Part shown: piece after piece, positions 28,431-33,689 of the stretch | Numbering within the stretch: the first letter of the stretch is position 1 | Layout: each line of letters opens with the position of its first letter | DNA from: Thamnidium elegans | Lineage: Eukaryota > Mucoromycota > Mucoromycetes > Mucorales > Mucoraceae | DNA: 64,000 nucleotides | NCBI GenBank assembly: GCA_025201345.1 | Contig: JAIXMG010000002.1 | Span: forward strand, 1,550,001 to 1,614,000 | Direction: 5' to 3' | Notes under the pieces: model-generated | The model's input: the letters and a program-made list of their open reading frames with translations, nothing else | Told to the model about the DNA's origin: nothing | The model's database searches: none | Position numbers and translations under genes: made by a program

Positions 28431-30927
28431 CTATTCTGTACAATTCCAAACAAATACGGTATTATTATTATCCACAGCTACGATTGTACGCGTATCATTA
28501 GAACAACAGACGTCTCGTATAAGCTCAGATGACATTGAGTGAGATAGTATCTACATATATACTTTTTAGCGTTATATATCTTTATAAGCATTACTAGTTC
28601 GTCTTACCTTTGTAGGCTTAAACTGTTCAACACTATTATCAGCCAAAGTTTTACTCTTCTTCATTTCGCCCACATTATATATACAGACTTGTCCATCATA
28701 TTCACCTGCAATTAGAACCTTTTGTCCCTCAGCCTCAATCACTTTATACCTCGAACCTGTACAACCTGCTGAATCTGGCCATTCTAAAGACAAGAGAATA
28801 TCCGCGTCTGTCTTTGTACTCTTTTCTCGGTCCCAAATAATAAATTCCATATCATCTGCACCTCGAGAAACTTTTTAAAAAAGAAAAAGATGAATATACA
28901 CATAATGCTTTTTCTTGTAGCCTTTTAAATACTTACTAATTTTATTATATAATTTACTCGATGTATTCCCGTCTTGGCCAAAGATGCAAATATCGTCAAT
29001 ATAACCTTCATGCCATTCACTACCTTTAGGATACATGGTATCGACTGTAATTGTAGCGAGTGGTCCAAATGCAGCCCACTTGTCGCCTGTTTTCGCTTCT
29101 TTATGTCTATACTCGCCAAGATTTTGACGAAATTTATTTAATTGTTCAGGTGAGATATGAAAACTAGCCATATCACCATTATCGAATCCAACCATCAAGG
29201 TTGAAAGATCGTATGATATACTGAGAGCAGAAGGTGTACTTGTTTTAGCAGGTAAATTGAACTTTGCTAAACACCTATATACAAACTTATATAAGTACAA
29301 AAAAACATGACATAATATAATATATATATAGACTTACACAGAGTCATCGTCTTTACTAGTAGGAGAACCAATATCCCATAATCTTACAGTTTTATCAGCA
29401 GAAGCAGTAAACAACCATCTTGGTTCACTTTTAGCAAATATCATTTTTAACACAGCCTTTTCATGCCCAAACAAATAACGATAACACTCATTCTGTAAAG
29501 GATTCAATAACTTGATTGAACCCAATCGACCAGCAATAGCCAACACATTACAGCTTTGATCCTCTATCAGACTATCGTTTAACAGTTGAGGTCCTGATAA
29601 TGTTGTCCAAGCCATACAATAAAAAATCTCTTGAACCTCGGTATGTGTATACTTTTTGGTGTATCGTGCTTGAAGTGTATCCAATAATAAAACCGTATAT
29701 GATCCACAAATAGCTACCACATTGGTGTTCTCTACTTGGTTGGGTCGAGTGGGCTCAAATTCGCAACACCAAATGTCTTTTGCGTCTTCAAAGTCGTCGT
29801 CGTTGACATCTTTTGCAGGAATGTTGATATCGGTATGTCCTTTGAATACAAGTGAAAGTTTATATGTACCACCTAATTTTTTTTATGTATAAAAAGAAAG
29901 GGACGTTTAGTCTTGAGCTTGTATAAAAACCTTGTTTACATTACTTACTAAGAATAGGTAAAGGTTGTTGATGACGACGTGTTTTAGGTTCTTTTCTTTG
30001 TAACGATTCTTCTTCATCGTCTGTTTCAATAGTTCGCTTCTTTCCTCTTTGACCAGTTTCTGTAGTAGTGGGTCGTGTAGAGTTGGTAGTTTTTTTCCCT
30101 CTACCTCTGCCTCTACCTCCACCTCTACCTCCACCTCGTCCTCTTGTGGTCACAGTCTTTCCTCTCGTTGAATTAGAAACGTCGATAGCTCTTTGTGTAT
30201 TTGTTTTTTTTGTCTTTTCTGAATTCGTTTCACTATCTACATTCATTTTAGCTCTTTTGGCTGGTGCTCCTTTAGATTCTAATGCCATGGCTGATTTAGT
30301 TGTAGGTACTGTCTTTGCAATGCTGGTTTGTCCAGATGCGTATGTAGTACTGAATGTAGTGCTGAGTGTAGCGTTAGGTGTATCGCTGATAATTTTATTC
30401 GGTGTAGGGGCAGAAATGTTACGTTCAACATTAATGATTGATTTAGGTGGGGTTCTCTCTGGTATATGTGGCGAAGAAATGGGACGAGCAGAAGGGGAGT
30501 ATATAAAGTTAACAGGTGAAGGAATAACAATGTGTTGGTTCGATCCAGTAGGTTGTGATCTTACATGAGCATTATCCGGTCTTGCTTGTTTCGGTATTGT
30601 TCTTACAGTTGTTGTATTATATACCGTTGGATTAGGTACTGCTGATTTAGGTGCTGCTGGTTTAGGTATTGTTGGATTAGATAGTGCTGGACTAGGTACT
30701 TCTGGTCTAGGTATTGTCGGTACAGTTGGTCTTTGTACAGTTGGTCTTTGTACAGTTGGGTCTGGTACAGTTGGTCTTTGCACTACCGGTCTTTGTACAG
30801 CTGGCTTTGGTACCGTAGGTTTTGGTACCGTAGGCTTTGGTACTTTAGGTTTAGCTACCTTTTTCTTTGGTTTAACAGGTGTTGGATCATTAGACGAAGC
30901 CAACATTCTCGAATATAAGTAACCCAT
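28431..30927 (-). CDS. WD40 protein of the LRWD1/EED type with a basic disordered N-terminus
   Basis: Five exons (30927-29949, 29872-29338, 29274-28937, 28870-28608, 28550-28431) give 744 residues. Residues 1-326 are disordered. A long KP/QRP repeat (VPKPTVPKPTVPKP and relatives) is followed by Ser/Thr-rich sequence, an RGG/GRGRGRGKK AT-hook-like patch at about 272-285, and a basic-acidic end. Residues 327-744 form a beta-propeller, with motifs DIWCCEFEPTRPNQ, NVVAICGSYTVLLLDT, 'IFYCMAWTTL', NVLAIAGRLGSIKLLNP and 'LFTASADKTVRLWDIGSP'. The last blade is 'IRDVCCSNDTRTIVAV' then TVFVWN. This order parallels the propeller of LRWD1/ORCA (ORC- and heterochromatin-associated) and, more distantly, EED of PRC2. 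No leucine-rich repeats are present, so it is not a full LRWD1. Nuclear chromatin role is inferred. Confidence 0.6.
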
Positions 30928-31260
30928 AATGTACAGTAAATATATAAAAGAGAAAGGAAAAAAAAATGTTTATCGCGTGAGGGCTGTGTAAAAAATCGCG
31001 ATAAACAAAATTAACTGTCACATTTTGAAAACAGGATGAATTGGTCTATTGGTATATTAACATTATGCAAATAAACCAGTTCGTATGTAATTAGATCAAC
31101 CACAATCTTTTTTGAGTTCTCTTACTAGTAAAGGCAATACTAGTATGGTAATCATTGCAGCAAAAACAAAATAAAATAAATATTGCAGGTAATTGAGTCT
31201 ACACAACTGGCCATTAATGTTACAAAAAAGGCAAGATAGCTTTTTGAAACCCTTAATTTA
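30928..31260. other. Upstream region of the WD40 gene
   Basis: Contains a partial inverted repeat (TTTATCGCG at 30968-30976 and CGCGATAAA at 30997-31005), which could be a cruciform or binding site. No gene. Confidence 0.4.
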
Positions 31261-31269
31261 AAATATGCT

Positions 31270-32760
31270 TACGTGTATACATCTAAATCGTTTAAAACGA
31301 AGCCGTTTTTTCTACGGTGATCGATTTATTGAGCGGATTTGGTCTTCCTTGACCTTCCCAAATTTAATTAGCGAGGTCAAACATATTTTTTGGCAGCATT
31401 GATATCGCGTTACCAAAGTAAATGACAAGGTTTTCCACATTCCAGGATACCACTGACATTAATTCCATTTGGGAGCTTTAAAGGTTTCGTTTCTTACTTC
31501 ACCTTTACACATGTTACAAGTCTGTAATAAATACAAGTTATTTTTAAACGACTGTTAAAAGAAATAAACTAAAATAAACTTACCACTGAAGTTCTGAACT
31601 CATCGATATCAACAATTGCGGCAAGATTCTGTTTCTGTCGACAAATTACTTCTTTATATAGTATGTTGGTGCCTCCAGATAATCTCTTCTTTATCCTGAC
31701 AGCATTTTTACGCTTCATTCCATCACCAAAAACGACAAGTAGAACAAGTGTACTGTCTACAAATTTACTAGGTCTCCATTTAGGACTATATATTTTTAAG
31801 AGTGTTAGTATTGATTATGAAATATATATTGCTGTATGCAAGCTTACCCTTTCTCTTCTTTTCTTCGCTCTTGCTTGTCCTTGTCCTTGCCTTTTTCTTT
31901 CTTTTGTTCACCTTCATCTTAATCCTCTTTTTTCTTATCTGCATCTTCTATCAACTTGGCTTCTTTACAAAGTGCATTTAACTTAACTTCTAGAACATCT
32001 GCTATTTTACAGCCAGGAATATGCCCTTTTTGCCTTTTACGATTATCAAGGCCGCCAGCAAGCGAATGCAAAGATGGCTAGCATCATATTGAACGGTGGT
32101 AAAAAAAACACAATCCTACAAAAAGAACACTAGAAAGAATAGAACGGAAAGAAGAGAAAGAAAAAGAAAAAGAAGAAGTTTCAAGATTTGTCGTTTTAGC
32201 AGTTGGGATATTAATTTCAATGTCTTTGATATTTTTTGTAATTTTTAACTTGTCAACATAGTTTTGTCTTCATCCGCTGTAACAGCAACGTTCTAAATCA
32301 CTACAACGGCAAACTTGATGTTCGTTTGAGTCGTTGCCAATGGATGCAGTAAATATATGTTTACGGCCCAGATCTATTGTACACGGCAAGAAGTTATCCT
32401 CAACCTTGATCCTATTGAAATATCCCAATGCTAAAATTGGAGCTTTTGAATATTTGTCTTCTCTCTTTCGAGCGAATTTTAGAGAGATACTATATCTATC
32501 AATGTGGGCAAAGCAAGCGAACAATTTTTTTTTCATTTTTATTAGCATTTTTCAAGTCATCAAGACTGGTTATGCATTAAACAATTAATGTTGCTGTGAG
32601 TAAATAGTTCTCTATGAATAAGTGTCCATTATTAATTTATTATTTACCTTTTATAGCCAAAACTTTTAAGATCAAACAATTAGTCAAACATTTCTAAACT
32701 TTCTGAATAACTATTTCCCAATGTTTTAATACCAGCATTAGATGCCAACGACTTGTTATT
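31270..32760 (-). mobile_element. Decayed Fanzor (eukaryotic TnpB-like RNA-guided nuclease), copy 1
   Basis: Minus-strand blocks, in several frames, line up with a Fanzor protein. An upstream helical part comes first (about 32760-32600: 'KTLGNSYSESLEMFD', 'LFDLKSFGYKR'), then 'HIDRYSISLKFARKREDKYS'. RuvC-I follows at about 32375 (CTIDLGRKHIFTASIG, catalytic Asp in IDLG), then a middle block (31790-31660: 'LLVVFGDGMKRKNAVRIKKR'). RuvC-II lies at about 31600 (VDIDEFRTSV, catalytic Glu), followed by an intron (about 31586-31532, GTAAGT...ACAG) and the zinc-ribbon half TCNMCKGEV. Last come the second Cys pair ECGKPC and RuvC-III at about 31410-31393 (RDINAAKKY, catalytic Asp), with a tail 'EGQGRPNPLN'. 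Several frameshifts and stops (one just before RDINAA) make it inactive. Family identity is inferred from this ordered motif set. Confidence 0.7.
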
Positions 32761-33689
32761 AATACTGATATTTCTCCATTTTAAACGAGTTAGGAGTAAA
32801 AGAAAATAATTTTGGCTTTTCCTTTTGTTCGACTGTTACTTCTGCCTCTTCCTCTGTCTCTTGACAGATGAATGCCAAAGCCGGAATAAAATTTTCAGGT
32901 TTTTTTTACATACTGAATGTTGTAGGAGAATTTCAAGCTTGACAGCTGAAAATTAATTTATATACTTACATTGTTTTACTCCGTCCTATGATTCTGTAAT
33001 GTTTATTTACGATAAATTCATTACGAAATATTGGCATTCAATGGACATATTTGTGTAGCTTTACATTTTTAACTAATTTGTATACTTATTTCAATTTGAG
33101 ACATAAATTATAGAATTATAAACTTTTTTTTTTAATTTCATTTAAAACTTTTATTTATTTGCGTATGTTTTTACATTTTTTTTTTTTAAAAAAATATTTA
33201 TATATTACATACTAGAATATACATCTTCGACGACTACGCGTCAGTAAGTTTTATTTGTAAGTAAAATTATGTTAAAACCAAACACTCATAAAGGTATTCT
33301 TTTAGTTTTGACATTTGTAAATAATTATATCACAATAAGTGTAATCTAACAAATAAAATTATCGAGGCGTAACTGTCAAAACTGTATATTTTAGTGAACA
33401 GTGTATAAGTTTTTTTTATTAAAGTGAAATAAATACTTGGCTATTTGTATGCAATTTTTTATTTTTTTATTTTTCAAATCAATTTATAGGTTCATTTTAA
33501 CCATCGTCACGAAATTAGGGGTTTTTACAATTGTAAGAAGCTTGTAAACGCAAGAAGACATACATGAATTCAAAAGTATAGATTTACTCTTTGTATATGA
33601 GCCAAAGAAAGAAAAAACTTGTTTATTCTTCTGGTAATGGTTTTTAACTGGAAAGTTGATATAATCATATTTCTTAATTGTATTGCTTT

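Follow-up and report, generated by a model that had tools for sequence, protein, structure and literature searches.

A decayed Fanzor1 gene lies on the minus strand at positions 32,929-31,295 of the 64-kb stretch of Thamnidium elegans DNA that was analyzed (the window); sequence comparison confirmed this identity, with the working parts of the gene in order and its frames broken. Taken as a whole, the data are very probably best explained by a dead, truncated and partly inverted copy of a Fanzor1 gene, the ancestor of which was carried in a TA-flanked DNA transposon. Direct support for this explanation comes from homology, motifs, termini, the inversion and a decay pattern without an excess of third-position changes, whereas the lack of any single frame covering the whole gene counts against it, as do the missing Pfam match for two window frames, the missing omega-RNA signal and the failure to identify a transposase in the relic's element. 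The relic is a further, non-working member of the known Fanzor1 kind. A preliminary description had placed a Fanzor relic at 31270..32760, which was the right locus but too short an interval, since protein homology spans 32,929-31,295 and 31,200 marks the end of the element. In listings of open-licence PMC papers, Fanzor was not seen reported for Thamnidium, and T. elegans is herewith added to the Mucorales with Fanzor elements.

Layout of the relic and its internal inversion

What remains of the TIR/TA transposon in which the Fanzor gene was carried occupies 31200..33423 (minus strand); its right end is at 31200, its left end is lost, and the outermost homology to the element, near 33423, belongs to a piece that lies inverted. 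The 5' part (33018..33354, minus) was recognized by comparison with the C33 copy (copies are named after contigs of the T. elegans assembly, 34.1 Mb in 64 contigs, the window being C12:1550001-1614000), which has, between this part and 32940, about 1.2 kb that are deleted in the relic. All motifs quoted in the preliminary description could be located on the minus strand, in the order given there and in different frames; their RuvC-I to RuvC-III labels come from alignment to relatives and from general knowledge. The coding part through RuvC-I (32176..32940, minus) contains IDLGRKHIFTA with its Asp codon at 32374-32372, is 85% identical to the C12 copy, and is matched in pieces at 71-89% by protein P0024 and at 3.8e-10 by the homologue profile described below. 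Further downstream, the RuvC-II frame (31572..31814, minus; DEFRTSV, Glu codon 31601-31599) has a profile match of 5.5e-8, and protein P0026 is 64% identical to the relic over 31781-31389. The intron with GTAAGT...ACAG ends that had been read in the zinc-ribbon region is indeed present as 62 nt at 31583-31522 (minus), a position that it shares with the introns of the C12 copy and of a younger Fanzor family of this genome. The zinc ribbon and RuvC-III follow in a broken frame (31389..31521, minus), as indicated by motifs and homologue matches, with CNMC (Cys codons 31518-31516 and 31509-31507), ECGKPC (first Cys codon 31439-31437) and RDINAAK (Asp codon 31406-31404). The C-terminal tail (31295..31390, minus) is matched at 69-72% by P0026, P0027 and P0029, reaching 31,295, and the right terminus, ...CTTGCCTTTTTTGTAACATTAATGGCCAGTTGTG plus TA (31200..31235, minus), is where the homology to the C12 and C17 copies ends. 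The catalytic Asp-Glu-Asp order of Fanzor1 is kept, and the zinc ribbon (TNB), with both cysteine motifs readable, lies between RuvC-II and RuvC-III. A scan of the window in six frames found a single occurrence each of the RuvC-II and RuvC-III patterns and two of a looser RuvC-I pattern, one of these two being in the relic. With its frame breaks, the deletion of about 1.2 kb and a 211-bp inversion, the locus is not an open, translatable gene. Adjoining the relic, at 29941-30969 (minus), is a 342-aa open frame with P-T-V-P repeats and an RG-rich tail.

The inverted piece, 31,965-32,175, lies between RuvC-I and RuvC-II and reads as coding sequence on the plus strand. In a DNA search of the genome, each of the seven paralogues for which a match to this piece is listed (C8, C12, C17:209k, C23:520k, C27, C33 and C38) has it in the opposite orientation relative to its neighbours, C10 and C17:309k having no listed match; by sequence comparison, then, the relic alone is inverted here among the copies compared. 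Plus-strand protein matches were found within 31,987-32,130 with the profile and with P0022, P0024, P0026, P0029, P0031 and P0032. Small inverted pieces can be mis-assembled, and the relic's inversion was read from the assembled sequence; an assembly error is nevertheless very unlikely, as the sequence is clean at both junctions, where inverted microhomology of 3-4 bp was seen by eye, and as inversions of other kinds occur in two further Fanzor relics of the assembly.

Small inversions of the RuvC-II region, read as distinct from each other and from that of the window, were observed in the Fanzor relics at C1:1434k (L043, L046) and C23:1588k (L033). A hot spot for small inversions between RuvC-I and RuvC-II of these Mucorales Fanzor elements, possibly created by Fanzor-made breaks or by the copying mode of the elements, seems to us very improbable. 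Three inversions read as independent (the window, C1:1434k and C23:1588k) were counted by eye in 15 Fanzor copies with at least two matched pieces, against no internal flip, also by eye, in 13 loci of the control DDE transposon L084 with at least two internal pieces (40 of the 59 candidates were scored, disregarding terminal repeats), and this difference was not significant (Fisher p = 0.23, or 0.22 with 15 controls). At the protein level, 3 of 52 loci were mixed-strand, at two distinct places, the window copy itself not being flagged, and no flips were seen by eye in the transposase protein search.

Assignment to Fanzor1

Two window frames taken alone yielded no Pfam family at E ≤ 1 and, therefore, frame-tolerant tests were needed. 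A profile was built from 22 homologues, 21 of which we take, from their genera, to be Mucorales, and was scanned over the 2,591 stop-to-stop frames of the window. Four matches, every one of them within the Fanzor interval, fell below E 0.5 (3.8e-10, 5.5e-8, 7.2e-6 and 2.9e-5), and six further ones had E values of 0.53-0.99, while the same profile gave no match at E ≤ 1 in the reversed window (2,893 frames). When the same 22 proteins were compared with the window by tblastn (E ≤ 0.01), 20 matched, every match being in the Fanzor interval; 19 of these were on the minus strand and P0022 on the plus strand only, within the inverted piece. P0017 and P0020 had no match in the window at this threshold, and the reversed window gave none with any of the proteins. 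A second homologue search, with the joined pieces of the C8 paralogue as query, retrieved 12 proteins at E ≤ 1e-5. The Helicostylum pulchrum protein P0024, which as annotated lacks RuvC-II and RuvC-III, is 71%, 87% and 89% identical to the relic in three minus-strand pieces (best E 3.5e-48).

The Fanzor reading is further supported by a match of the zinc-ribbon family PF07282 in the relative P0026 (26.8 bits vs a cut-off of 26.3), by a sequence match of the homologue family to the solved SpuFz1 (1.8e-11), and by the fold of the unbroken Mucorales relative P0006 from M. saturninus, the predicted model of which (pLDDT 62.5) matches Fanzor1 structures, the relic itself being known from sequence. 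The order of RuvC and zinc ribbon is common to TnpB, Fanzor2 and Cas12-like proteins, and the weak PDB matches of the young-family protein are to the mimivirus TnpB-like L79 (0.084) and to LaTranC (0.19 and 0.23). Still, a relic of one of these genes is highly improbable, and the family appears to be Fanzor1 rather than TnpB or Fanzor2, given the homology of the relatives to proven Fanzor1 and the link of the relic to these relatives.

H. pulchrum P0024 and P0026 and Mucor flavus P0004, predicted Mucorales Fanzor proteins, belong to the same protein family as the relic; these relatives are predicted proteins, whereas the relic has broken frames, a truncation and an inverted part. PpFz1 of Parasitella parasitica is described as a Mucorales Fanzor1 that is active in vitro and has been solved (PMC11423790). 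Like the relic, it is a Mucorales Fanzor1, and it was among the best of the listed fold matches of the P0006 model; PpFz1 is presented as a functional enzyme with an FRI insertion (PMC11423790), the relic being non-functional. SpuFz1 of Spizellomyces punctatus (8gkh) is described as active, with a known omega-RNA (PMC10432273); its RuvC D-E-D, zinc ribbon and RP.F.R tail align with the young family, and its identity to P0006 in fold alignments is 14-16%.

Element ends and carrier transposon

Copy-to-copy homology ends at 31,200, at ...CCAGTTGTG followed by TA. The 24-base right end occurs at 12 genomic places with at most 3 mismatches, the window included, and the reversed pattern at none. Fanzor sequence adjoins it at four of the 12 (the window, C17:209k, C23:520k and C45:860k), and among the matches listed no Fanzor sequence was seen by eye in the inner 1.5 kb of the other eight. 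The partner (left) end is present at the start of the C8 copy and, degraded, of the C27 copy, and the two ends occur together, with TA, in a mini copy at C17:38291 that measures 52 bp when the TA is counted. In the window copy, the left terminus was looked for and not found; a blended 37-letter left-end pattern had no match in the genome and also missed the left end of the C8 copy itself. The element has the terminal inverted repeats and TA flanks of a Tc1/mariner carrier, its terminal repeats being only partly alike, and on these two features the carrier looks like a TIR/TA transposon and fits Tc1/mariner. Within the relic's element itself no transposase was identified, and no DDE transposase was recognized among the listed open frames of the C8 copy; the genome has at least 165 DDE_3 matches. 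Fanzor1 in TA-flanked Mariner elements was described by Bao and Jurka in 2013 (PMC3627910), with Fanzor as cargo of a TIR/TA element, as in the carrier proposed here, and with some elements lacking their own transposase. In contrast, the Mucorales elements in the part of that report drawn on here are MuDR-like (9-bp duplications) or unclassified (MCi-2, MCi-5) and not TA-flanked (PMC3627910), and the relic ties a Mucorales Fanzor to a TA-flanked terminal-repeat carrier.

Based on these data, the ancestor gene would have ridden in a DNA transposon of the Tc1/mariner kind, about 3.4 kb long in the C8 copy, with short TA-flanked terminal repeats, and we infer that its transposition probably took place in trans, driven by one of the genome's many DDE transposases. 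By analogy with established Fanzor1, the live ancestor would have cut DNA at sites set by a guide RNA from the right end of the element. After insertion, about 1.2 kb of the 5' part would have been lost, the 211-bp piece flipped and frame breaks gathered, and the resulting copy cannot make a nuclease.

The adjacent omega-RNA anticipated in the preliminary description was searched for with single and consensus folds, and no supported signal was obtained. At the right end of the element, single-strand folds resemble shuffles (z 0.01 for the relic and -0.96 for the young family). The consensus fold of five copies was equalled by 111 of 500 column shuffles, and an omega-RNA at this end is not supported. 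In that consensus fold, which was derived from the same rows, 5 pairs changed on both sides, a number reached by 3 of 500 shuffles.

Sister copies and decay

The relic has nine close sister copies in the genome and, judging by sequence, belongs to an old group of decayed Fanzor copies. K2P distances to the C8 copy over the RuvC-I exon range from 0.079 to 0.193 for nine copies, among them the window copy with 0.139. Of the claim that such a copy could date the invasion, the relative ages stand, but an absolute age would require a rate or an empty site. Changes relative to C8 by codon position were 127/86/113 in the RuvC-I exon (nine copies) and 76/77/78 in the RuvC-II exon (seven copies), in pairs that all share the C8 copy and so are not independent. 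There is no third-position excess, as expected for neutral decay of copies after a burst; a first-position excess in the RuvC-I exon of the window (22/44) and of C33 (22/42) is unexplained and counts against the explanation given above. Six of the nine close copies have stops within the pieces that were matched, and the frames of C8 are broken as well; C27 and C10 have no stop in their matched pieces, but both are incomplete. Although the catalytic codons and intron ends are still there, it is extremely improbable that the locus still works as a non-coding RNA, a guide source or a short protein, given the missing third-position excess among copies, the shuffle-like fold energies and these stops and broken frames. 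Inside the Fanzor relic at C17:209k, an additional segment of about 170-180 bp that contains inverted repeats (L051, approximately 2444-2625) was noticed, perhaps a small non-autonomous element.

A younger Fanzor family in the same genome

A second family was found at 10 places with matches of 3.1-4.5 kb, the query copy counted, that are 96-98% identical to the query. Its right end is sharp at the same base in most copies, and internally deleted derivatives are present. The exons are only about 29-43% identical to those of the relic and, therefore, the family represents a separate lineage; at least two Fanzor waves of different age are present in one genome. The composite element of about 4.3 kb consists of a left mariner-like piece with a broken DDE_3 end (17.8 bits, below the cut-off of 28.6), followed by the Fanzor1 gene and a right end of ...AGATGCACTG adjoining TA, with a second mariner-like end inside. 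It is located at C19:113k, C21:482k, C26:419k, C33:249k, C1:2045k, C2:35k and other loci (L053-L055, L068-L072). The Fanzor protein annotated in T. elegans, P0001, has only 547 aa.

Live relatives elsewhere in the genome, intact and with conserved ends, had been anticipated as well. Younger Fanzors with conserved ends do exist, but all three copies that were read (C19, C21 and C33) contain at least one frame break each while keeping the RuvC-I, II and III motifs: C19 and C21 stop directly after NGGKK, and C19 and C33 are broken upstream. A working Fanzor was thus not seen among these three. With its near-identical copies, internal deletions and many different flanks, the family lends itself to asking what use a mobile element has for Fanzor. 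Of the five left ends that were read, four (L068, L070, L071 and L072) start with TTAA and have differing flanks, the fifth being truncated; these starts are a possible hint, at the sequence level, to the TAM of the element.

Further Fanzor-like sequences

In P0033 (T. elegans INT48_004735), which is predicted to be an HMG-box protein, the last part (residues 483-599) matches the relic family, with 86% over the RuvC-II exon; this protein is either a gene-model fusion or an exonized Fanzor fragment. P0031, from a record named Albugo candida (an oomycete), is a fragment of a Fanzor with about 60% identity to the relic and is likely contamination, given its tiny contig of 916 bp, with horizontal transfer as the less likely source. 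Finally, 21 genome matches correspond to further Fanzor-like TNB zinc ribbons, e.g. L003, which has a 270-aa open frame with WNRD.
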